Positions 26,935 through 48,647 of a DNA stretch of 62,299 nt are shown in pieces. The translations under genes were made by a program, and so were the position numbers. This DNA comes from Spirochaetes bacterium ADurb.Bin215 (GTDB lineage Bacteria; Spirochaetota; Spirochaetia; Treponematales; Treponemataceae). Positions within the stretch are counted from its first letter, which is position 1, and each line of letters opens with the position of its first letter. The stretch spans positions 1-62,299 of the forward strand of contig MWCL01000007.1 in NCBI GenBank assembly GCA_002070025.1, given 5' to 3'. The notes beneath the pieces were generated by a model. That model ran no database searches and was not told the DNA's origin. It saw only the letters and a program-made list of their open reading frames with translations.

Positions 26935-28115
26935 GCATCATCCTTCTCAGTTGATCTACCTGTTAATGCTTCAATGGTTGAAGTATACCTACCTATAACA
27001 ACTGAATCGGCAAAATGTTCCACCGCAATTCGCCGGGATTCCGCTCCAAAACGCTTTTTTTCTTCAGGCAGGAGCTCGATAAAGCGTATCATGGCATCTT
27101 TTAATGCGTCAATGTCCGCGGGAGGAACAAGATATCCGTTCTTTTCATGGGATACGGGTTCCCGTGTGCCGACACTGTTTGCCGCGATCAGGGGTTTCCC
27201 CATGGCCGCTGCTTCAAGAAGCGCCCGGGGAACTCCTTCCCGGTATCGTGAAGGCAACACAACACAGTCGGCCATAGCAACTTCAGGTATAACGTTATCA
27301 ACCGTACCGCGATACACAACCGTACCTTGTTCAATTGCCTGTACGAGTGTTGCATTATCAATAAAAATCGGGTTTTCCGTATCGTGCTCGCCCAGAATTA
27401 TAAAAGTGCTCCGGGGATATACTGTTTTAACTTTTCGTGCGGCTTCGATAAAATCTTCGATTCCTTTGGAAACAAGAAGTCTGCCATTGTACAGAAAACA
27501 GGTTTCCTCTGGCGGGGAACAATCCTTTCCGGAGGGGGCGAAACGCTCCGTGTCCACGCCGGAACCTGGAATTACGGTTGTTTTATCCGGAGCGACCAGA
27601 CGATTGTCGAGGAAAAACTTGCGGTCATCATTATTCTGGAAAAAAACACGGGCGTTCTTCGATGAAAAAGCACTCCGGTACAGGGCATACACCAATACTT
27701 TCATTATGCCTGATTTTTCCGCGACAATGCCAAGACCGGTGATATTTGAAATGGACGGGATTCCGAGCATATTCGCCGCAAGCGTTCCGTAAATATTGGG
27801 TTTATTGTTGATATGCAACACTATTGCGGGGCGGTATTTCCGGTACAGCGATAGAAATTTCAAGAAAAGCCGGAAATCTTGAATAATGCTTGTGCTGTCG
27901 CTTTCCATGGGAAGGGAAATGAACGGCAGGGACAATTCAGTAGTAATCCTGTCAGAAAAGGTGTCAGCCGCGGCCATGGTTGTTACGTCCCATCCTGCTC
28001 CTGAAAGCGTAATGAGCAAACGTTTACGTGAAAACACATTCCATGCCGTATTACAGGAAAGCATGATGACCCTGTTCGTTCGGGATTCGTTGCCTGTCAA
28101 TTTCTGATTGCTCAT
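26931..28115 (-). CDS. GT4-family glycosyltransferase
   Basis: A 394-residue GT-B enzyme of glycosyltransferase family 4: N-terminal acceptor domain with LHINNKPNIYGTLAA, then donor domain with VIPGSGVDTERF, FLYNGRLLVSKGIEDFIEAA, and the nucleotide-sugar site PSRYREGVPRALLEAAAMGKPLI. It resembles PglA/WbnH-type enzymes that add the second sugar. It starts the minus-strand run ending at 23.3 kb, and its ATG lies 28 bases from the divergent gene at 28144. No Shine-Dalgarno. Confidence 0.85.
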   Translation of the reverse strand: MSNQKLTGNESRTNRVIMLSCNTAWNVFSRKRLLITLSGAGWDVTTMAAADTFSDRITTELSLPFISLPMESDSTSIIQDFRLFLKFLSLYRKYRPAIVLHINNKPNIYGTLAANMLGIPSISNITGLGIVAEKSGIMKVLVYALYRSAFSSKNARVFFQNNDDRKFFLDNRLVAPDKTTVIPGSGVDTERFAPSGKDCSPPEETCFLYNGRLLVSKGIEDFIEAARKVKTVYPRSTFIILGEHDTENPIFIDNATLVQAIEQGTVVYRGTVDNVIPEVAMADCVVLPSRYREGVPRALLEAAAMGKPLIAANSVGTREPVSHEKNGYLVPPADIDALKDAMIRFIELLPEEKKRFGAESRRIAVEHFADSVVIGRYTSTIEALTGRSTEKDDA

Positions 28116-28136
28116 CGGGTCATTTTACTATACGAT
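28108..28136 (+). promoter_or_regulatory. Promoter of the glycerophosphotransferase-like gene
   Basis: TTGCTC (28108-28113), 17 bases, TACGAT (28131-28136), seven bases before ATG 28144. The -35 overlaps the start codon of the divergent glycosyltransferase gene. Confidence 0.4.
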
Positions 28137-28150
28137 ATTGGTCATGTACA
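28122..28150 (-). promoter_or_regulatory. Promoter of the divergent GT4 gene
   Basis: On the minus strand TGTACA (28150-28145), 17 bases, TAAAAT (28127-28122), six bases before ATG 28115. It interleaves fully with the opposite promoter, and its -35 covers the ATG of the plus-strand gene. Confidence 0.4.
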
Positions 28151-29370
28151 GCGCCCTGTTTCTCTACATTGATCCCGGTACGGGAAGCATGCTTTTTTCC
28201 ATAATCATTGGTCTCGCAGCCGCTCTCTATTTTATCGCCAGAACGACACTGGTCCGTTTCAAGGGACTTTTTACCGGTTCCACACGACATACTTCCGATG
28301 CATCTGATTCCATCGTACTCTATTCTGAAGGGAATCATTATTGGAATGTGTTTTCCCCTGTTCTGGAGGAATTCGAGCGGCGGAATATTCCGGTAAGGTA
28401 TCTTACCTCGAGTGAAAACGACCAGGTCTTTTCACGGTCCTGGAATTCTGTGCGCACGGAATATATCGGCAGCGGGAATCGCGCCTATGCACGGCTCAAT
28501 TTTCTTGTTGCAGATGTCTGCCTCATGACAACACCCGCTCTTGACGTCTATCAGCTCAAGCGTTCCCGTGGGGTGAAACACTATACACACGTTCTTCATG
28601 CCGTGGACGACGCAACAAGTTACCGTCTGTTCGGTCTTGATTACTTTGATTCGGTTCTTCTTTCCGGTGAGTATCAAAAAGCGGGTATTCGTGAACTTGA
28701 AAAAAAACGCGGACTGCCGCAAAAGGATCTGGTTGTAGTCGGCTGTCCCTATCTTGATGTTCTTCAACTACGGGAGAACAGCAATGAACCGCATGATAAT
28801 TTTACGGTGCTTGTTTCGCCGTCATGGGGACCCGACGGACTTTTACGGCGCTATGGAGAACAGCTTCTTGAACCGCTCGTACAAACGCAGTGGTCCATTA
28901 TTGTGCGTCCGCATCCGCAATCACTCAAATCCGAAAAAGAGAGTATCGATCGGCTTCGTATGCAATTTCCGGAATCACCATCATTTTCCTGGGATTTTTC
29001 ACCGGACAATCATGATGCGCTCCGTAAATCCGATGTCATGATTTCGGATTTCTCCAGTATCATGTTTGATTTCTGTTTTCTTTTTAACCGACCGTTCCTG
29101 TATGCAAATACCGGGTTCAACGACGAAATTTATGATTCAAGTGATTGCGATGAAACACCCTGGAAGTTCCGTATTCTACCGGAAATAGGTATGAAACTGG
29201 ATCCGTCCGCTTTTTCAGATATCAAGAAAACTATTGAAACCCTCTGTACGGATGAGGTGCGCGCGGAAAACCGTATTGCAGCAAGAGACACCGCATGGCA
29301 ATACCGTGGAGAAAGCGGTGTCCGTATTGTTGATTATCTTGTGAAAAAACAACGGGAGCTATCATGTTGA
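28144..29370 (+). CDS. CDP-glycerol glycerophosphotransferase-like enzyme 1
   Basis: A 408-residue protein with an N-terminal membrane segment (LYIDPGTGSMLFSIIIGLAA), then a GT-B fold of the TagB/TagF (Glyphos_transf) type: LLSGEYQKAGIRELEKKRGL, VVGCPYLD, SPSWGPDGLL, IVRPHPQS, SDVMISDFSSIMFDFCFL. Such enzymes transfer glycerol-phosphate (or ribitol-phosphate) from the CDP-activated form in teichoic acid synthesis. TagD, which makes CDP-glycerol, is encoded at 45.7 kb. The open frame begins at TTG 28108, but ATG 28144 fits the conserved N-terminus. It overlaps the next gene by seven bases. Confidence 0.72.
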   Translation: MYSALFLYIDPGTGSMLFSIIIGLAAALYFIARTTLVRFKGLFTGSTRHTSDASDSIVLYSEGNHYWNVFSPVLEEFERRNIPVRYLTSSENDQVFSRSWNSVRTEYIGSGNRAYARLNFLVADVCLMTTPALDVYQLKRSRGVKHYTHVLHAVDDATSYRLFGLDYFDSVLLSGEYQKAGIRELEKKRGLPQKDLVVVGCPYLDVLQLRENSNEPHDNFTVLVSPSWGPDGLLRRYGEQLLEPLVQTQWSIIVRPHPQSLKSEKESIDRLRMQFPESPSFSWDFSPDNHDALRKSDVMISDFSSIMFDFCFLFNRPFLYANTGFNDEIYDSSDCDETPWKFRILPEIGMKLDPSAFSDIKKTIETLCTDEVRAENRIAARDTAWQYRGESGVRIVDYLVKKQRELSC

Positions 29371-32084
29371 CAATACTGTATCAGGCAATCGTTCAACCGC
29401 TCGTATATGTTACAGAATTGGTGTACATGCTTCTTGACTGGATTTTCAAGGGCAATACCGGAATAGCCATTACCGGTGTAAGTGTAATTGTGTCCCTTTT
29501 CAGTCTGCCATTATACATCAAGGCAGAGGAAACGCAAAAAGCTGAACGGGTTATTCAGGAAAAAATGCGTAAAAGGGTAACAAGCATCAGGAAAAACTTC
29601 TCTGGTGATGAAAAATACATGATCCTGTCAACGTACTATCGGCAAAACGGCTATCATCCGCTGTTTGCCCTGCGCAGTTCGGTTGGATTACTTGTTCAGG
29701 TTCCTTTTTTCATCGCGGCTTATAATTTTCTTTCCGGATTGGACGCCCTTAACGGTCAATCGTTTATGGGCATTCCGGATCTCGGTCAACCCGACCGTCT
29801 TGTTTCAGCAGGCGGATTTGAACTAAACGTGCTTCCGGTTCTCATGACCGCAATCAATGTTGTATCCGGATTTATTTACACACGCGGCCTACCCGTAAAA
29901 GAGAAAATTCAACTGAATGTCGTAGCAATTGCTTTTCTTGTATTGCTGTATAATTCACCCTCGGCGCTGGTTTTATACTGGACGCTGAACAATCTTTTTT
30001 CACTGATAAAGAATGTTTTTCTCCGGCTCAAGAATCCCCGTAAAGCGCTCTATATCACACTGTGCATATTTCTTTCAGTGTTCTGTTTTTATGTCTTCTT
30101 TGTACGACACCACAGCCGGAGCTACCGTCTGCGCAATTACGGTCTTACCGCCATTCTTACTGCTGTTCTGGCGGCTATCCCCCTGTACATTCGGGGTATT
30201 CATTGTATCGGAAAGAAATGGTTTACCGGTCTCATTGCAGACGGAAGACACCAATTCATTCTTGCCGTTCTCAACCTCCTGGTTCTGTTTCTTCTCATTG
30301 GAGTGTATGTACCATTTTCAGTGGTCTCGTCATCACCCTTTGAATTTTCCTTTCTGGGTTCTGCCGAAAGTCCATTTGATTTGCTGATATATCCGGTAAC
30401 CCAGGCCTTCGGTTTTTTCCTGTTGTGGCCGCTATTCCTGTACCTTCTTTTCTCGAAACGTTTCCGCGCAATTCTTGTTGTTGCCGGCGGTATCTCCCTG
30501 ATTATAGCTCTGGTCAATGTTTTTCTGTTTCCGGTTGGCACAGGTGAAATTTCCCGTACCCTTCAATTCACTGATGGCGCTCATTTTTCACAATCTCTGT
30601 CGGTATCCCTGATTCACTGGTGTACCATCGCAGGACTCATTACGGTATTCCTTGTACTGATATCCCGCAGGCAATATCGTTTTGTAGTTCCATTTCTGGG
30701 AATTCTGGTTGCAGGTATTATTGTTTTCTCCGGCATACGTGCATTCACCATTCACAATGGGTACACAAAACTGGCGGCAATCATGGAACAGGAAACAGAA
30801 CTCACGGATACTGATCTCAATCCCGTACTCTCGCTATCCAAAAACGGGACCAATGTTGTTCTTATCATGCTCGACAAAGCTGTCGGGGCCTATCTTCCGC
30901 TTGTTCTGGAAGAAAAGCCGGATCTGATCCAGTCCCTGGACGGTTTCGTTTTTTATCCGAATGCGCTCTCTTTCGGTGAAAAAACCATAATGGGAGCTCC
31001 GCCTCTTTTTGGAGGCTATGAGTACACACCGGCGGGAATGAATGAAAGACCGGAAATCCCGATGGTTGAAAAACACAATGAGGCGCTTCTGGTTTTACCG
31101 GAGCTTTTTCGCCGAGCAGGATATGAGACGCTGATTACCGATGCTCCGTTTGTAAATTATGAATGGGTCGCTGATCCTTCATTTTTCAGGTCTCGCGGAT
31201 TTACTGCAGAAAATTTGAAGGGAAAATACACCTCCCGTTATCTTGAGGAATATCTCCCGGAACTCGACATCAGTGAACCGGACCAGATTGTGCGACGGAA
31301 CATGATTTTCTTTTCATTACTGACCGCATCGCCGTCATTATTCAGGGGTGCCGTTTACAATGACGGCCGTTACTGGAATTCTTCTCTGCTATCTGTTGAA
31401 ATCAAGTCTCTGGACAGTTATGCGGTACTGCATTATCTGGACCGTATTACCGGTACCAATGCACGTGGAAACACGTTTACCGTTATGGTTAATGACCTTC
31501 CCCATGACCCGGCGCTTCTTTCCGGTCCGGAATACAAATTTGCCGTTGGTCTTGAAAATCCGGAGACCGGAGTGCTCGGCAAATCTGATGATTATGACCG
31601 GTATCACTCAAACGCGGCATCCATAGTTATGCTCGCCAGGTGGTTTGAGTACCTCAAGAAAAATGATGTATATGACAACACACGGATCATACTAACTTCT
31701 GATCATGGATCAAAAACCGATCATCCGAATCTCGATAGTTTCGGCCGGAATGTTTTTCTTCGCTATAATCCACTGTTACTGGTCAAGGATTTTTCCCGAC
31801 GAGGTTCGATGGAGACAGATACCAGGTTCATGACCAATGCAGATGTTCCGACACTCGCACTTGAATCCATTATTGAACATCCGTTGAATCCATTTACCGG
31901 GAACGCGATTGATTCATCCAGCAAAGATAATGGAATCATCATTCCCGTTGATGTAACCATTCATCAGGGATTTACTCCGGATCTCAAGACACGTACCACC
32001 TGTTTTGATGCGGGGGCAAGAATATACCGGGTACATGCAGATGAAACCGGGGCTCTTGTCTGGGAATCCGACAGTGCAGATTAA
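29364..32084 (+). CDS. YidC/Oxa1-like domain fused to LTA-synthase-like sulfatase domain
   Basis: A 906-residue membrane protein with an unusual layout. Residues 1-230 resemble YidC/Oxa1 insertases: a helix, NTGIAITGVSVIVSLFSLPL, a charged loop, QVPFFIAAYNFLSGL, and LNNLFSLIKNVF. More membrane helices follow to about 470. The C-terminal part is an alkaline-phosphatase/sulfatase fold as in lipoteichoic acid synthase and phosphoethanolamine transferases: metal ligand D504 (VVLIMLDKA), probable nucleophile T541 (FGEKTIMGAP), and metal ligands D780-H781 (LTSDHGS). CGGGAG before ATG 29364. It is coupled to a glycerophosphotransferase-like gene. Likely transfers a phospho-alcohol or polymer outside the membrane; inferred. 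Confidence 0.75.
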   Translation: MLTILYQAIVQPLVYVTELVYMLLDWIFKGNTGIAITGVSVIVSLFSLPLYIKAEETQKAERVIQEKMRKRVTSIRKNFSGDEKYMILSTYYRQNGYHPLFALRSSVGLLVQVPFFIAAYNFLSGLDALNGQSFMGIPDLGQPDRLVSAGGFELNVLPVLMTAINVVSGFIYTRGLPVKEKIQLNVVAIAFLVLLYNSPSALVLYWTLNNLFSLIKNVFLRLKNPRKALYITLCIFLSVFCFYVFFVRHHSRSYRLRNYGLTAILTAVLAAIPLYIRGIHCIGKKWFTGLIADGRHQFILAVLNLLVLFLLIGVYVPFSVVSSSPFEFSFLGSAESPFDLLIYPVTQAFGFFLLWPLFLYLLFSKRFRAILVVAGGISLIIALVNVFLFPVGTGEISRTLQFTDGAHFSQSLSVSLIHWCTIAGLITVFLVLISRRQYRFVVPFLGILVAGIIVFSGIRAFTIHNGYTKLAAIMEQETELTDTDLNPVLSLSKNGTNVVLIMLDKAVGAYLPLVLEEKPDLIQSLDGFVFYPNALSFGEKTIMGAPPLFGGYEYTPAGMNERPEIPMVEKHNEALLVLPELFRRAGYETLITDAPFVNYEWVADPSFFRSRGFTAENLKGKYTSRYLEEYLPELDISEPDQIVRRNMIFFSLLTASPSLFRGAVYNDGRYWNSSLLSVEIKSLDSYAVLHYLDRITGTNARGNTFTVMVNDLPHDPALLSGPEYKFAVGLENPETGVLGKSDDYDRYHSNAASIVMLARWFEYLKKNDVYDNTRIILTSDHGSKTDHPNLDSFGRNVFLRYNPLLLVKDFSRRGSMETDTRFMTNADVPTLALESIIEHPLNPFTGNAIDSSSKDNGIIIPVDVTIHQGFTPDLKTRTTCFDAGARIYRVHADETGALVWESDSAD

Positions 32085-32092
32085 TGTGATAG

Positions 32093-33335
32093 TTAAATTT
32101 CGCTTGTTACAATGTGCAGGATTCTTTCAGCGGCGGTTTGTGGAAAGAGGAAATGTTCTGCGGCACGCTGCCGTTCTGTTTTCTTGGAATCCTGCCCGCA
32201 TATCGCTACAGAGCTGATCAGATCGGTCAATTCTTTCAGGGTATGGGCTTTGTAATATGAATCGGTGATGATTGTTCCCAGTTCATTATACCCGACTGAA
32301 CGGGGGTTCACCGGAAGAATAACCGGATTCCCCGACGGCAGGTATTCACCGAGAAATGAAATGCAATCGGTAATCATGAGTGTCGATTCTACAAACAGGC
32401 CGAAGTAGTTTCCCTGTTCATAGACCGATGCATTGGGAATGCTCCTCCATGCGTCATAGTACTCGTCGGCTTCCGCCATGGTCATGATTCCATGTTGGAC
32501 AAGCTCATACTTGAGGCGGGGATGCGGCTTGAACACCCAGGCCGTGTCGGGGTGTTCTTCGGCAAATTTGAGCAATTCACGTCCGTTCCAGTCAAAGGTA
32601 GCAAAGGTAGCCCGGTCGAAGCTGTGATGGGGCGCATAGATTATTCTCGGTTTTGTTTCTGAACCGGCGGGAAAGAATTCAAGTGCATTGTTTGTCCGTA
32701 TGCGGCGGTATTCGTCAAGTTTTGGATACCCCGCAACCCGGCAATTCCTGCCGCGGTTATCCATGGTCGCCTGGAGCAATTCGGCATTCAAATGAGAAGG
32801 TACCATGAAGCGCCACACATAGTTCATGAATGGAGTATTCTTGTGAGGCTCATAGTCGGCAACCTGCATGGCGTACGGAATATAGCAGGTCAGGGCTCTC
32901 CGCGATAGTGTATGAATGTCCGTTATTCCCTTGATCGTTCCCCAGGGTTGAATGTAGAAAACAATGTCGGGGTTGAAACGGAGCGGTGAAATATCCTTGC
33001 CGGAGGCGGCATCATACCCGTGTATGAACGGAATGTTCCGTTCCTCAAAAAACGCTATATCGTCGGCATAACCGTTTCTCGTTTTTGATTCAAGCTGATT
33101 TTGTGGTTCACGACACACAAAAATATAAGGATCGAACAGGGCGGAGTCCTGCATCGCGGTAAAAACGGAATGAGCGTTCCATTTCGTATTGTTGTTTACC
33201 AGAAATAATACCCGTATGCGGTAACCGGGTTGTTTCAGCATTGTTCGCGCAAGCCGGCGTACCCTGTGGGAATATCGCCGTTCATAGTACGGAATACGAA
33301 ACAGAACGATTCTTCTTTTGAGAGACCTCAATACC

Positions 33336-33364
<29 letters not shown>
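32093..33364 (-). CDS. CDP-glycerol glycerophosphotransferase-like enzyme 2
   Basis: A 423-residue GT-B protein with a very basic N-terminus (about residues 1-40, membrane-surface contact). Conserved stretches include VFYIQPWGTIKGI, VAGYPKLDEY, IIYAPHHSF, WVFKPHPRLKYEL and MITDCISFLGEYLPSGNPV, which correspond to the nucleotide-binding domain of TagF-like polymerases. It overlaps the preceding GT4 by 29 bases and is the last gene of the minus run that includes the phosphonate genes. It converges with the YidC-sulfatase gene with eight bases between stops. Polyol-phosphate transfer is family knowledge; the acceptor is unknown. Confidence 0.72.
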
Positions 33365-37538
<4,174 letters not shown>

Positions 37539-37550
37539 GGAATCAGCTCC

Positions 37551-38849
37551 TTATTTTGTTCCGGGGATAAGTTCAAGAATCTGTTTGATCGGCATGCACA
37601 GGGGATCCGCTTCAAGAGATCGTTCATGCTCAAGAATGGTTTTCGCGACCGTAACCATGGCCGGATACGAAGCGCGGAGCATGTGGTTGGCGTAAATGAT
37701 GATGTTTGCGCCCCAGGCGTGGAGTTCGGCTTCCGTAAACCGGTTGTAGGTGGTTGGAACCAGAACGATGGGAACGTTGGAGTATTCTTTCCTGAATCCC
37801 TCACAGAATTCCCTGATATCCTCTCCGGTTTTTTCCTTGCTGTGAATCATTACACCGTCGGCACCGGCTTTTACGTAGGCAAAGGCACGTTCAAGCGCGT
37901 CGGATACCGGATAGCCGGCAATAAGACTTTCCAGCCGTGCAATGATCATGAAATCCTTGGTAACCTGGGCTTTTTTGCCGGCGCTTATCTTTTCCGAGAA
38001 CTCTTCTATCGTGGCGAGTTCCTGCCGGACGTCGGTTCCAAAGAGGGAGTTTTTCTTCAGCCCGACTTTGTCTTCTATAATGACGGCTGAAACGCCGTTC
38101 CGTTCAAGCGTACGTACGGTAAAGACGAAATGCTCGGTCTTTCCGCCGGTGTCACCATCAAAAATGATCGGTTTGGTGGTACATTCCAGAATATTGGTGA
38201 GATCCTGGAGACGGGTAGTGAGATCCACCGCCTCTATATCGGGTTTCCCCTTGCAGGTTGAATCCGTGAGGCTCGACGACCACATGCCGTCGTAACTGTG
38301 GACTCCGTCGTCCTTTTTGACTTCCAGGTTTTCAATGATGAGCCCGGATAGTCCCGAATGCGCTTCCATGATCCGCACAACGGGTTTTGCCTGAATGAGC
38401 CGGCGAAGCGTTTTCATGCGGATTTCCGGGGTCGTACCGAGTGATTTTTGAGCCTCGTTGAGCGCTGTCGAATTGATTCCCTTGGTGTAGGGCACCTCGA
38501 CAACCTCGCCGCCGAGTTCTTTCATAACGGCATAGACATCTTCGCGGATCCTGCTCAGGGGACCGGTTTTCCAATCATCACCATGAATGATGTAGTCAGG
38601 TTTATACTTTTTCAGGTTTGGAACATAACTCCAGTCTTCCTGGGGAACGACCCGGGATACGCCCTTCATGTTTTCCACAACCTGTCTGCGTTGTTCATAG
38701 GATAAAAAGGGAAGGCGTTTGTGCATCGCTATGGCCGAATCAGTTAACAGGCCAATGATAACTTCTCCGAGCTTTTCCGCTTCGTTGAGAATGTTGATAA
38801 TGCCGGGGTGAATTATATCGCCGGTCATGCCCAGATATACAGTTTTCAT
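37551..38849 (-). CDS. pepM: Phosphoenolpyruvate phosphomutase with N-terminal nucleotidyltransferase-like domain
   Basis: A 432-residue two-domain protein. The C-terminal part (about 148-432) is PEP mutase, forming the carbon-phosphorus bond; the diagnostic EDKVGLKKNS is at 259-268, which separates it from isocitrate lyase relatives. The N-terminal 140 residues resemble a cytidylyltransferase of the TagD fold, but the HxGH motif reads HPGI, so its second histidine is lost; a GINST motif remains. ATG 38849 with GAGG five bases upstream is preferred over the open frame to 38882. First gene of the AEP set. Confidence 0.93.
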   Translation of the reverse strand: MKTVYLGMTGDIIHPGIINILNEAEKLGEVIIGLLTDSAIAMHKRLPFLSYEQRRQVVENMKGVSRVVPQEDWSYVPNLKKYKPDYIIHGDDWKTGPLSRIREDVYAVMKELGGEVVEVPYTKGINSTALNEAQKSLGTTPEIRMKTLRRLIQAKPVVRIMEAHSGLSGLIIENLEVKKDDGVHSYDGMWSSSLTDSTCKGKPDIEAVDLTTRLQDLTNILECTTKPIIFDGDTGGKTEHFVFTVRTLERNGVSAVIIEDKVGLKKNSLFGTDVRQELATIEEFSEKISAGKKAQVTKDFMIIARLESLIAGYPVSDALERAFAYVKAGADGVMIHSKEKTGEDIREFCEGFRKEYSNVPIVLVPTTYNRFTEAELHAWGANIIIYANHMLRASYPAMVTVAKTILEHERSLEADPLCMPIKQILELIPGTK

Positions 38850-38880
38850 GCGAACCTCGGAAATGATATTTTGTAGTGCC

Positions 38881-38910
38881 ATTCTACCGTGTAACCCGCT
38901 TGCCTAGCAA
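38881..38910 (-). promoter_or_regulatory. Candidate internal promoter of pepM
   Basis: Minus strand TTGCTA (38910-38905), 18 bases, TAGAAT (38886-38881), about 31 bases before the pepM ATG. It could drive the phosphonate genes separately from the upstream epimerase. Confidence 0.4.
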
Positions 38911-44789: not shown

Positions 44790-45676
44790 GCTTCAGTTCC
44801 TTGCTTTTTTCGTCCCCACCGGGGATCGAAGAATCGTTTCTTTATGTCGCGGAAAACGTACGGTCCGCAGGTATTCCAGGTATGGGTGCATACTGCTTTG
44901 AGGTGTCTTTCAGGACAAATTGTTTTAATGGACTGCTCATGATACTCATTCCGTGAAAGGACTTCAACACGGTTGAGTACAACACGTTGCCCATAGTCAT
45001 TCTTGCTGTATTGAGCGGGGCGAACGAGAAGACCATTCTCGTCCCGGTACATTTTCCCCGCCATCCGGCTTCTTGTTCTTCCGGTTATCACCGGGTTTCC
45101 CGGCAAGGGTTTCCAGTCGGAAGAAGGAAAGTCCGGACTGTGAAACACAAAAAGGGAATCGTTCATTCCATGTACGCCATCCTGAAGTGACGTAAGAAGA
45201 AACCAGGTACTGCCGTCATGAAATAGTTCCGGATCGGCCGCACGTACTCCGGTCATCAGCGTGGAATCATGAACCCACTCAAAAGGAAATCGTGTAGCCC
45301 GATAACATTCGATAGAACCGGCCCGGTTCGATTCAGGAATCATGTACCATTCTGTCTTGCCCTTTTTTTCTACCGGGAATACATTGGGCCATGACAGGTG
45401 ATAGGGAAGCGTCAGAACCGGGATAACGGGTCCGTGTGTAAGGTCCTCATGTATTTCCATACAGCCGAGTATCCCTTTCCCGCCGACAACCTGTTCTTCG
45501 AGAAAAAGATATACGCGCCCGTCATGACAGACCGGGAAGGGGTCTGCCCAAATCCGGTCGGACGGCGGGATGATTTCTTTCAGGGAAGTACCATTCTGAT
45601 CACATAGGAGAATTGACCATTGTTCCCTGAATAAGAATCGAATGACCTTCCGCTTAAGTTTTCTGACCGGCTTCAT
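44786..45676 (-). CDS. Five-bladed propeller protein of glycan loci (GIPC-transferase N-domain-like)
   Basis: A 296-residue protein matching the propeller domain annotated in glucosamine inositolphosphorylceramide transferase family proteins and other glycan-locus proteins. Diagnostic segments: RIWADPFPVCHDGRVYLFLE, a GILGCMEIHED blade, PYHLSWPNVFPVEKKG, WYMIPES, AADPELFHDGSTWFLLTS. The fold resembles GH43-like propellers. No transferase domain is attached. Enzymatic or binding role is unknown. It overlaps tagD by 23 bases and the next GT4 by ATGA. Confidence 0.65.
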   Translation of the reverse strand: MKPVRKLKRKVIRFLFREQWSILLCDQNGTSLKEIIPPSDRIWADPFPVCHDGRVYLFLEEQVVGGKGILGCMEIHEDLTHGPVIPVLTLPYHLSWPNVFPVEKKGKTEWYMIPESNRAGSIECYRATRFPFEWVHDSTLMTGVRAADPELFHDGSTWFLLTSLQDGVHGMNDSLFVFHSPDFPSSDWKPLPGNPVITGRTRSRMAGKMYRDENGLLVRPAQYSKNDYGQRVVLNRVEVLSRNEYHEQSIKTICPERHLKAVCTHTWNTCGPYVFRDIKKRFFDPRWGRKKQGTEA

Positions 45677-46049
45677 TTTTTATCTGTGTTGTTGATATTT
45701 CCGGAGTACGGGGAAGATACACTACCGTACACAATTCATTGAGAAAATCGAATTTTCCTTCCCAGTCATCGCCAATAACGAAGGTATCCACATGATATTT
45801 CCGTATGTCGGTTTTTTTTTGTTCCCAGGACTCTTCCGGGATTACGAGATCAACATAGCGAATCGCCTCGAGCATTGATTTTCGCTGTTCATAGGTGAAA
45901 TAGGATTTTTTTCCCTTTTCCACGAGATTGAACTCGTCGGTGGAGAGCGCAACAATGAGATAATCACCCAGCTCTTTCGCACGTTTTAAAAGATTGATGT
46001 GCCCGTAATGCAAAAGATCGTAGGTTCCATAGGTTAATACTCGTTTCAT
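45654..46049 (-). CDS. tagD: Glycerol-3-phosphate cytidylyltransferase
   Basis: A 131-residue enzyme making CDP-glycerol from CTP and glycerol-3-phosphate. It matches TagD over its whole length: the HxGH motif H14-YGH17 in TYGTYDLLHYGHINLL, the middle YVDLVIPEESWEQK, GDDWEGKFDFL, and the terminal EISTTQIK. Confidence in TagD rather than another small cytidylyltransferase is high because WEGKFDFL and YLPRT are TagD features. In Gram-positive bacteria it feeds teichoic acid synthesis; here the likely users are the glycerophosphotransferase-like proteins at 28.1 and 32.1 kb. ATGA overlap with licD. Confidence 0.92.
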   Translation of the reverse strand: MKRVLTYGTYDLLHYGHINLLKRAKELGDYLIVALSTDEFNLVEKGKKSYFTYEQRKSMLEAIRYVDLVIPEESWEQKKTDIRKYHVDTFVIGDDWEGKFDFLNELCTVVYLPRTPEISTTQIKNEAGQKT

Positions 46050-46882
46050 GCTGTCCCTTTTCTCCAGTACACACGATAATCATGCCGTGCGACCTGTTTA
46101 TCTGCCGGCGGCAACGCACGGTAATCCCCGTACATTGTTTTCAAGTACTCATCATATCCCGCGGGAATGGGAAATTCATACCCTTCGAAACGCATGGGAA
46201 TTGTTTTATCCACGTACTTTTTTTGTATCCGTTCGCGTCCGCTTCCATATCCCCAGACAGTGAGACCGACATACTCGCTTGTTTCGTACTCGTGCCGGGT
46301 TGCTATACGGGTGATCTTGCGGATAAAGAACGCGCAACCAGTCAATTTTGCAAGTCCTACCATACAAAGACGGGGCAGGGTAAAGAGGGGATTATCGCTG
46401 AAATAGATTCCGGTCCCCGCATACATGTTCCACCGTCTCCAAAAACGGATTTTCCGGTGTTCCCTTTCATATTCATCGTAATCGGCAGGGGTACCATCTA
46501 CAGGAAAAACATCTATTGATAGACCGTTCTCTGTAATGGTTTTGCTCCGGGTTTCCTTGCAAAAAGTCCGTTCGTCGCACACCTTCGCAAAGGGGTACAT
46601 ATGCGCCCGATTGTATTCTGTACACAAGACAGTATAGCCCGGAGCTACACGACCTCCGGTGAGCGTTATGAATTTATCATAATCCGGACGCGGCATACGT
46701 ATATCGATGTCATCATCCCAGGGTATGAACCCGCCGTGCCGGACGGCCCCAAGACAGGTTCCGCTTGCCAGATGATAAAAAATCCCGTTCTCTTTACAAA
46801 AACTGTCCACCGCAAGCAGTATTCCCAGAAGAAGCGTCTTTATTTCCGCGTCGTCGGTGATTTCAATCATGTCAGTTTTCAT
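46046..46882 (-). CDS. LicD-family phosphotransferase
   Basis: A nucleotidyltransferase-fold protein of about 278 residues with the LicD core: LASGTCLGAVRHGGFIPWDD continuing to DIDI (metal-binding D56, D58, D60 by the start at 46882), and later LSIDVFPVDG. LicD proteins move phosphocholine from CDP-choline to glycans. No choline kinase or choline cytidylyltransferase is present; CMP-AEP from PntC is chemically similar to CDP-ethanolamine and is a plausible donor (inference). The start may be ATG 46900 or 46882; 46882 has a distant GAGG and lies in the ABC gene's stop region. Confidence 0.85.
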   Translation of the reverse strand: MKTDMIEITDDAEIKTLLLGILLAVDSFCKENGIFYHLASGTCLGAVRHGGFIPWDDDIDIRMPRPDYDKFITLTGGRVAPGYTVLCTEYNRAHMYPFAKVCDERTFCKETRSKTITENGLSIDVFPVDGTPADYDEYEREHRKIRFWRRWNMYAGTGIYFSDNPLFTLPRLCMVGLAKLTGCAFFIRKITRIATRHEYETSEYVGLTVWGYGSGRERIQKKYVDKTIPMRFEGYEFPIPAGYDEYLKTMYGDYRALPPADKQVARHDYRVYWRKGTA

Positions 46883-48647
46883 CGGCAAAGAGTTCCTCAT
46901 AGGTACCGCGGCGGGTTATTACCCCTTTCTCCAGATAAAAAATCTGATCGCACTTTTTTAGCGTACTAAGTCTGTGGGCAATGAGAATGATGGTCTTTTT
47001 TCCTGAAAGCCCGTCTATGGCCGCCATGACGTCCTTTTCAGTCTGGTTATCCAGAGCGGATGTCGCTTCGTCCATGACGAGAACAGACGGATTCCGGTAC
47101 AACGCGCGGGCAATACCGATACGTTGCCGCTGTCCGCCGGAAAGGCGAATTCCCCGCTCGCCAATTTTTGTTTCATACTGCTCGGGAAGTTCGTTCATGA
47201 TGAAGTCGTCTATCTGCGCCATCTTTGCCGCGTCACGGACTGCCTTGAAATCAATGGTATCGCCGGTGTGACCGAACGCAATGTTGGACGCAATGGTATC
47301 GTTTGAAAGATAAATGCTCTGCGGAACATAGCCGAGATTCTGCTGCCAGTTCCGTATATTTGCGGAGGTTACCGGCGTTCCGTCTATCAGGATCGACCCT
47401 TCCTGTGGAATGAGCAATCCGAGAATGATATCCACGAGTGTCGTTTTTCCTGATCCTGTTTTTCCGGCGAAGCCGACCAGGGTGTTTACCGGAATGGTCA
47501 AATTGATGTCTTTCAGAACACTGGTTGTGGTACCTGCGTAGGTAAACGTAACGGTATTCAACCCGATTTCCCGTGAGAAATCCATCCGGGGAACCGCGTC
47601 TTCAATGAGATCCCGCTCCGCAAAACGGTTTTGAAACTCCTGGACAATTTTTGTCGCTGCCGGCATGCTGTACTTGAACTTGCTGAAAGCGCGGAACAGG
47701 CTTTGAACCGAAGGCATGAGACGATAACCGGCATAGGCATATACGCTTATTGAAGAAATGACCTGGGTAAAATCTTCCGATTTGATTATGGTCACCATGA
47801 TAAAAAGCAGGATGGAACTGAACGCGACAATTTCAAGGATGTATTTCGGAATAACACCGATTACTTCTTCTTTTGTATAGTTTTTCGACAATTGTTTCGA
47901 CGGTTCCGTAAATGAACTGACAAAGGACTTTTCGCATCCGGTTATTTTCGTTTCCTTGATTCCCCAGAATGCCTCATTTACTACCCGCATCCTGAGTGTA
48001 TTCATGCGGTACCGCTCTTTCCCGAGTCGTCGTACTTCTTTTTTAATAACGAAAAAGATAAGACCATATACAAATACCAGCGCTGACGTTATGAGCAGCG
48101 TAGTAAAGGGATTGATGTAAAAGAGAAAGGCGCTTAACAGAATGATCTGGAATATGTACGTAATCAGGTTAACTATCTGCAGTATGGCGCCGTTTACCAT
48201 ATGGTCGATTTCATTTATGACATTTTTCACAAACTCATAACTGTTCTTGTTCAGGAAAAACGGATATTTCTGGGAAATGTATACCTTGAAGAGTTTCAGG
48301 GACAGCGAATGCCGCCTCATGCTGGTGAAACGGGTTTGCGCGTAATGAAAGAATCCGAGATAGGCATTACGGATAATAATGAATACAAGCATGAGCATTC
48401 CAAGCGCCACAAGAAAAGAACGATCGCTCGAAAAATTCAGCGCCGAATAGATTGCCGCCAGATATTCATTGGTTCTGATCAATTCCGGCTGAGAGGCCAC
48501 CGCAATGAAAGGCATGATGGAACTTACGCCGAGAACTTCAATAATGCCGAGCAGTATGGAACCGGCAATCAGAAACAACAGTTGTACTTTTTCTTTTCGT
48601 TCGAGAAGTGATAGTACGCTTTTTATCTGTCGCGGAAACGATGTCAT
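46872..48647 (-). CDS. PglK-like ABC transporter (lipid-linked glycan flippase)
   Basis: A 591-residue half-transporter with a membrane domain (about 1-330, six helices) and an ATPase domain (about 350-585). The latter has Walker A GKTGSGKTTLVD, the ABC signature LSGGQRQRIGIARAL, Walker B VLVMDEATSALD and the H-loop IAHRLSTL. The overall similarity is to MsbA and PglK, which flip lipid A or lipid-linked oligosaccharides. In this locus it is the only flippase candidate; no Wzx, Wzm-Wzt or polymerase is seen. It follows the Wzi-like gene by 15 bases. Confidence 0.87.
   Translation of the reverse strand: MTSFPRQIKSVLSLLERKEKVQLLFLIAGSILLGIIEVLGVSSIMPFIAVASQPELIRTNEYLAAIYSALNFSSDRSFLVALGMLMLVFIIIRNAYLGFFHYAQTRFTSMRRHSLSLKLFKVYISQKYPFFLNKNSYEFVKNVINEIDHMVNGAILQIVNLITYIFQIILLSAFLFYINPFTTLLITSALVFVYGLIFFVIKKEVRRLGKERYRMNTLRMRVVNEAFWGIKETKITGCEKSFVSSFTEPSKQLSKNYTKEEVIGVIPKYILEIVAFSSILLFIMVTIIKSEDFTQVISSISVYAYAGYRLMPSVQSLFRAFSKFKYSMPAATKIVQEFQNRFAERDLIEDAVPRMDFSREIGLNTVTFTYAGTTTSVLKDINLTIPVNTLVGFAGKTGSGKTTLVDIILGLLIPQEGSILIDGTPVTSANIRNWQQNLGYVPQSIYLSNDTIASNIAFGHTGDTIDFKAVRDAAKMAQIDDFIMNELPEQYETKIGERGIRLSGGQRQRIGIARALYRNPSVLVMDEATSALDNQTEKDVMAAIDGLSGKKTIILIAHRLSTLKKCDQIFYLEKGVITRRGTYEELFADEN

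Follow-up and report, generated by a model that had tools for sequence, protein, structure and literature searches.

Proteins with the YidC/Oxa1 fold are present in all domains of life and are known as protein insertases. Sulfatase-fold membrane transferases such as LtaS and EptA work on the outer face of the membrane with lipid donors. In the 62,299-nucleotide stretch of the genome of Spirochaetes bacterium ADurb.Bin215 analyzed here (contig MWCL01000007.1; hereafter the window), both folds are encoded by a single gene, hereafter the fusion. The gene upstream of it encodes a protein resembling CDP-glycerol (CDP, cytidine diphosphate) glycerophosphotransferases, hereafter the partner. We propose a surface-decoration system of several components in which the fusion may be the enzyme that acts last, outside the cytoplasm.

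The fusion shares with the YidC/Oxa1/Alb3 insertases (PF02096, TIGR03592) the same predicted five-helix fold with a C1 region, but its groove lacks the positive charge, its chain is longer by about 680 residues that include a periplasmic enzyme, and it is linked to glycan and phosphonate genes. With LtaS/LtaP, EptA/EptC/MCR, OpgB and YejM/PbgA it shares a periplasmic alkaline-phosphatase-superfamily domain with an Asp-Thr-Asp-His site, placed behind transmembrane helices. Unlike these proteins, to which it is 9-13% identical, it adds a YidC fold and a seven-helix region unmatched to solved structures, and co-occurs with the partner. The partner has the C-terminal catalytic half of TagF/TarL (PF04464) but differs from them in its N-terminal hydrophobic YIDPGTGS segment.

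The window also holds genes of the PepM/Ppd/AEPT/PntC phosphonyl tailoring pathway, and PepM was found in 11 of 77 fusion loci. PntC encoded in phosphonate clusters was characterised by Rice et al. (2019), who describe the tailoring that follows C-P bond formation, past PntC, as still enigmatic; the main text of that paper names neither YidC nor a sulfatase (PMC6697681). In three-component transmembrane glycosylation a cytoplasmic enzyme charges a lipid, which a membrane protein then moves for transfer by an enzyme on the outer face (PMC8035078, PMC11127046). The resemblance is one of logic only: the proteins are unrelated, and here a phosph(on)o-alcohol is proposed as the group moved, by a mover that shares its polypeptide chain with the transferase.

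Results and discussion

The initial annotation had described one 906-residue frame joining a YidC-like region, additional helices and a sulfatase-fold domain, with no frameshift, stop or re-start at the join. Open reading frame analysis, Pfam, AlphaFold2 and Foldseek all confirmed this architecture. The frame starts with ATG, has no internal stop, and its start codon overlaps the stop codon of the upstream gene. Pfam matched 60KD_IMP (YidC, PF02096) to residues 33-220 (E 4.4e-21, 76 bits, cut-off 35) and Sulfatase to residues 497-787 (E 1.3e-8, 35 bits, cut-off 25); the TIGR03592 score of the window fusion (P0001) was slightly below cut-off (81.1 vs 84.3). The AlphaFold2 model, built with 98 aligned family members, was confident (pLDDT 90.6, pTM 0.89), and Foldseek aligned its YidC part, with core residues 32-222, to Bacillus halodurans YidC (3wo6; TM 0.76 on target, rmsd 2.9 over 210 columns, 23% identity). 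Residues 1-31 form a helix where YidC has the periplasmic EH1. The predicted order is five YidC helices, seven more helices and a periplasmic domain, and the topology predicted from the helices and the Lys/Arg distribution leaves the C1 region and loop on the inside, with the sulfatase domain and the N-terminal helix on the outer side. In structure comparison the C-terminal 412 residues matched LtaP (Z 20.4), LtaS (Z 19.7), EptC, YejM and phosphonate monoester hydrolases, all with Z 19-21. The middle region has seven predicted helices, and the membrane domain of LtaS has five. The seven were modelled confidently on their own (pLDDT 91.4), and the PDB gave no confident match that would identify them as a known LtaS/PbgA membrane domain, although a missing match is not an exclusion.

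The family was surveyed with one genome per species, and at least 77 loci were found, containing at least 99 full-length fusions, 97 of which are less than 85% identical to one another. The hosts are gut- or animal-associated spirochaetes and clostridia, namely Treponema and other spirochaete metagenome-assembled genomes (MAGs) and Clostridia/Lachnospiraceae MAGs, together with one Fusobacterium MAG. Several Clostridia records are titled as MAG labels only; seven such copies formed one supported clade (0.99), and ten such genomes, searched whole, gave 1-9 matching stretches each. PF02096 was matched by all 46 members scanned, and no Pfam or NCBIfam model described the fusion as such in these members. 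About 100 independent fused copies rule out a frameshift, an assembly artefact or a chance join. Homologues that are always separate genes are likewise ruled out, since they are overwhelmingly fused; exceptions are the separate genes of the L126 and L127 loci and a few split or broken copies. Two copies are split near the membrane/sulfatase junction, by natural splitting or recent frameshift: L034:1627-4328 (490 and 409 residues, touching by 1 bp) and L035:4397-7059 (423 and 423 residues, 119-bp gap). Broken extra copies stand beside intact ones at L037:8363-11057 and G223:C1:2070708-2073403, which suggests that the family is still duplicating and decaying. In L072, L106 and L116 the fusion is shorter by about 50 residues, which are missing behind the YidC part (around residues 223-275). 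No match to the fusion was found on plasmids.

The YidC part was the most conserved region of the fusion, with a mean pairwise column identity of 0.60 compared to 0.375 in the sulfatase domain and 0.26 in the middle region, indicating that it is not a mere anchor. At the position of the groove Arg/Lys, which is S44 in the window, 108 aligned family members carried Ser (48), Thr (39), Asn (20) or Phe (1) and none Arg or Lys, whereas the canonical YidC of seven relatives carried Arg or Lys in all seven. The solo YidC-like forms described below were likewise devoid of a groove Arg/Lys. Residues Y51, T162, N165, Y172 and N209 were fixed in the family and different in the seven canonical proteins compared, and P49, Y97, Q112, P158, Y205 and W206 were common to the fusion and the host's own YidC. 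A long branch of 2.1 substitutions per site parted the family from canonical YidC in the tree. The host genome encodes a separate canonical YidC elsewhere, ruling out the fusion as the only YidC of the cell. Taken together, the sequences suggest that the YidC part may no longer be an ordinary insertase.

The groove Arg of YidC (R366 in E. coli) has been termed strictly conserved, and in E. coli it is dispensable if residue 517 is aromatic; on the other hand, it is essential in S. mutans YidC2, which has Trp at the equivalent of 517 (PMC8920935). In the fusion the place of E. coli Y517 is taken by W206. Since the groove charge is lost but the data from E. coli and S. mutans conflict, a loss of insertase function is suggested and unproven. 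The idea that the YidC part had become a scaffold in place of an insertase thus stands in part: the missing groove charge, the canonical YidC in the same genome and the linkage to the partner and to glycan and phosphonate genes favour a non-insertase role, whereas a passive scaffold fits poorly with the YidC part being the best conserved of all.

The partner gene overlaps the fusion by 7 nt, its exact start codon being uncertain, and its product scored 36.6 bits against PF04464 (gathering cut-off 22.1). H161, H164, the RPHPQ motif, D309, D314 and S316 were invariant. In its catalytic half the partner matched Cps3D (E 6e-7) and TarL (E 0.005), and few members reached any named model, even weakly. 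Among 59 relatives both the fusion and the partner were present in 24 and neither in 35; the 24 include the divergent relatives G001, G007 and G010, in two of which a contig end cuts the sequence short. In the window's own genus both were present in four genomes and both absent in eight, indicating that the agreement does not reflect one ancient event. A count over 198 genomes from the phylum gave 38 with the fusion, 37 with the partner and 35 with both (Fisher p 6e-33, uncorrected for relatedness). The three genomes with the fusion alone are 85-91% complete, and in the two with the partner alone a solo YidC-like gene adjoins the partner. The two genes were adjacent in 51 of 103 runs; neighbours were always co-directional and 4-bp overlaps were common. 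In Bacillota the partner was rare (2 of 299 sampled genomes). Frequently several fusions accompany a single partner gene, which fits one shared donor with many acceptors; G048, for example, has four fusions. These paralogues lie in 13 kb of locus L033 (G048:C1:1813793-1826802), where there is one partner gene. LicD was tried as an equally tight companion and rejected (12 of 24 fusion-bearing genomes vs 8 of 35 others): LicD and PepM follow the fusion loosely, unlike the partner.

In two other spirochaete families (loci L126 and L127) the YidC-like protein, the partner and a sulfatase-type protein are encoded by separate genes. The solo YidC-like proteins have 238 and 286 residues, respectively, with Asn at the groove position, and the L126 partner is 39% identical to that of the window. 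In L126 the genes follow one another in a single direction in the order pepM, ppd, pntC/AEPT, solo YidC-like gene, partner and sulfatase-type gene; L127 has the same genes, with the phosphonate genes next door and divergent. Homology of the two sulfatase-type proteins with the domain of the fusion was not upheld, the profile comparison being weak. As the unfused sets keep the YidC-like protein and the partner, these two form the constant pair and the sulfatase-fold enzyme is exchangeable. The unfused sets are the strongest argument for the YidC fold as a working part. The tree gave low support on whether the unfused form is ancestral.

The initial annotation had placed D504, T541 and D780-H781 as metal ligands and nucleophile. 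These residues, and in addition H714, were invariant wherever the aligned sequences (117 relatives and the window fusion) have a residue in the column concerned. The sulfatase signature C/S-x-P-x-R is absent: T541 is followed by I-M-G-A. An LtaS-type site (acidic residue, Thr, Asp-His, second His) is present in the fusion, and LtaS has Glu where the fusion has Asp. The curated LtaS model NF053595 was matched weakly by 2 of 46 members (best E 4e-4), the window fusion not being among them. The earlier term "LTA-synthase-like" (LTA, lipoteichoic acid) applies at the level of fold and active site only, and the surrounding genes speak for transfer of a phosph(on)o-alcohol more than for lipoteichoic acid as such. 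The host genome had no Sulfatase-family match besides the fusion.

The fusion loci are surface-glycan loci. In the window the genes for PepM, Ppd and PntC-AEPT lie 2.5-7 kb from the fusion on the other strand (Table 1). Over all 77 loci chance placement would give 0.06 with PepM, an expectation that is not a strict null because glycan genes cluster anyway. A gene for the synthesis of cytidine monophosphate (CMP)-aminoethylphosphonate or of a CDP-amino-alcohol was near the fusion in 34 of the 77 loci. Recurring cytidylyltransferases are fused to a 2-aminoethylphosphonate (AEP) transaminase, a CobD/HisC-like pyridoxal phosphate (PLP) enzyme or a choline-kinase-like domain, and some of the activation enzymes beside fusions may yield CDP-ethanolamine or related donors. 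Genes for a cytidylyltransferase with a CobD/HisC-like enzyme also occur in genomes without the fusion. Two- or three-domain activation enzymes stand beside the fusion at L046:10729-12705, L065:4939-6768, L119:6082-7920 and L107:2221-4230; they combine a cytidylyltransferase with a CobD/HisC-like PLP enzyme, a choline-kinase-like domain or a PEP mutase (PEP, phosphoenolpyruvate). Between the fusion and the phosphonate genes of the window, a 423-residue frame (32093-33364, minus strand) had no Pfam or NCBIfam match and by eye resembles GT-B transferases. The LicD protein of the window weakly matched the diacylglycerol cholinephosphotransferase Mf1. The initial annotation had missed the partner gene and the phosphonate genes nearby, as well as how broad the family is.

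Table 1. Features of the fusion locus in the window
Feature	Position	Strand	Remarks
Partner: N-terminal hydrophobic YIDPGTGS segment and CDP-glycerol glycerophosphotransferase-like (GT-B) domain	28108..29370	+	PF04464
Ribosome-binding site GGGAG	29354..29358	+	5 nt ahead of fusion ATG, within end of upstream gene
Fusion gene: YidC-like, 7-helix membrane region and sulfatase-superfamily domain	29364..32084	+	906 aa
YidC-like core, residues 32-222	29457..30029	+	Pfam 60KD_IMP, Foldseek to 3wo6
Codon of S44, position of YidC groove Arg/Lys (E. coli R366)	29493..29495	+	no R/K in 108
Middle membrane region, residues 223-494	30030..30845	+	seven predicted transmembrane helices
Sulfatase-superfamily (LtaS/EptA/phosphonate monoester hydrolase-type) domain, residues 495-906	30846..32081	+	predicted periplasmic
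D504, predicted metal ligand	30873..30875	+	117/117 aligned residues
T541, predicted nucleophile in place of sulfatase Cys/Ser	30984..30986	+	117/117 aligned residues (Thr)
H714, invariant active-site histidine	31503..31505	+	117/117 aligned residues
D780-H781, predicted metal ligands	31701..31706	+	115/115 aligned residues
Cytidylyltransferase and 2-aminoethylphosphonate transaminase fusion (PntC-AEPT)	34559..36403	-	expected to make CMP-AEP
Phosphonopyruvate decarboxylase (Ppd)	36417..37538	-	TIGR03297 525 bits, cut-off 312.5
PEP mutase (PepM) with N-terminal cytidylyltransferase-like domain	37551..38882	-	TIGR02320 413.5 bits, cut-off 319.55
Glycerol-3-phosphate cytidylyltransferase (TagD type), second possible CDP-donor source	45654..46049	-	TIGR01518 206.9 bits, cut-off 165.4
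LicD-family phosphotransferase	46046..46900	-	PF04991 151.8 bits

The domain content, the invariant catalytic residues, the loss of groove charge, the linkage and the unfused gene sets, known from sequence and prediction, can be brought together in one scheme. Enzymes of the neighbourhood would make a CMP- or CDP-activated small alcohol or phosphonate, in the window probably CMP-2-aminoethylphosphonate (from PepM, Ppd and PntC-AEPT) and possibly CDP-glycerol (from TagD). The membrane-anchored partner, which must act inside because the CMP and CDP donors are there, would move the phosph(on)o group to a membrane carrier at the cytoplasmic face. The YidC-like domain, with its polar, uncharged groove and probably no longer mainly a protein insertase, would receive and present, perhaps flip, the carrier or its head group. 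Finally, the periplasmic sulfatase-fold domain would load the group on Thr541 with bound metal and pass it to a surface glycan, in a manner like that of LtaS and EptA, which draw on phospholipids. The two membrane faces need a link, and with the partner inside, the transferase outside and the conserved YidC-like part between them, we propose this scheme of loading, presentation or flipping, and transfer, and give it as a whole a probability of roughly 0.45, with less for flipping; the substrate, the carrier, the direction of transfer, any flipping and the division of labour are what we infer in it.

Several observations weigh against this proposal. We know of no precedent for flipping by the YidC fold, and loss of the Arg need not abolish insertase function, W206 being aromatic like the residue 517 required in E. 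coli, so that a changed role of the YidC part is not proven (PMC8920935). The seven-helix region gave no clear or confident PDB match in the structure search, and the separate membrane sulfatase-type proteins of L126 and L127 are only remotely similar to the domain of the fusion. TagD and LicD are also encoded in the window, which makes its donor ambiguous. PepM was found in just 8 of 24 fusion-bearing relatives and 43 of 77 loci had no amino-alcohol or phosphonate activation gene in the locus DNA examined, indicating that phosphonate is not the universal donor; one universal donor was rejected on the PepM count. A genome of the window's genus has a PEP mutase (G011:C60:19559-20410) and neither fusion nor partner, and its route from AEP to the surface must therefore differ.

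A phosphoglycerol transferase of the LTA-synthase or OpgB type, drawing directly on phosphatidylglycerol, with the YidC part as an extra anchor or folding aid and a partner from the same glycan locus that makes an unrelated glycerol-phosphate linkage, would account for the LtaS/LtaP-like fold and active site, for TagD within the locus and for the two weak matches to the LtaS model. It seems unlikely to us, since the highest conservation in the YidC part is unexpected for an anchor, the co-occurrence with the partner is near-perfect across the 59 and 198 genomes, and where the genes are unfused the YidC-like protein still accompanies the partner, next to phosphonate genes and with another sulfatase-type protein. 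It is also improbable that the YidC domain still acts as insertase or chaperone, for the partner or for other membrane proteins of glycan synthesis, and that its joining to the transferase serves to keep the two in one place: the same genome encodes a canonical YidC, the branch to canonical YidC is long, the polar residues T162, N165, N209 and Y172 differ family-wide from all seven canonical proteins, and the Arg is essential in S. mutans YidC2, which shares the Trp at that site (PMC8920935). This possibility draws on the true YidC fold of the prediction, the conserved C1 region with Q112, Y205 and W206, the function of E. coli YidC when the Arg is missing and 517 is aromatic (PMC8920935), and the obligate link to a membrane-anchored partner.

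A hydrolase trimming sulfate or phosphate from surface polymers, with the remainder of the protein as membrane anchor, is very unlikely. Such an activity would agree with the Pfam Sulfatase match and the close structural resemblance to sulfatases and phosphonate monoester hydrolases, but the nucleophile is an invariant Thr and not the Cys/Ser of the sulfatase signature, and the domain is membrane-tethered like LtaS and EptA and encoded among biosynthetic genes beside a CDP-glycerol-transferase-like partner.

Conclusions

The folds of the fusion are known, but in a literature search of open PMC papers we found no published description of their being combined in this way and in this setting. We put forward as a doubtful but still tenable extension of the loading, presentation and transfer scheme that this YidC-fold clade was re-purposed from protein insertion to moving a phosph(on)o-alcohol lipid or head group across the membrane, forming with the partner and the sulfatase-fold transferase an undescribed transmembrane glycan-decorating system that would include the missing steps after CMP-aminoethylphosphonate. 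Since members of the family match models for the membrane protein insertase YidC, automatic annotation likely misnames them. The fusion is a concrete candidate for the steps after CMP-AEP termed enigmatic by Rice et al. (PMC6697681). If the extension is true, the family would be a clear case of the YidC/Oxa1 fold acting on something besides protein.

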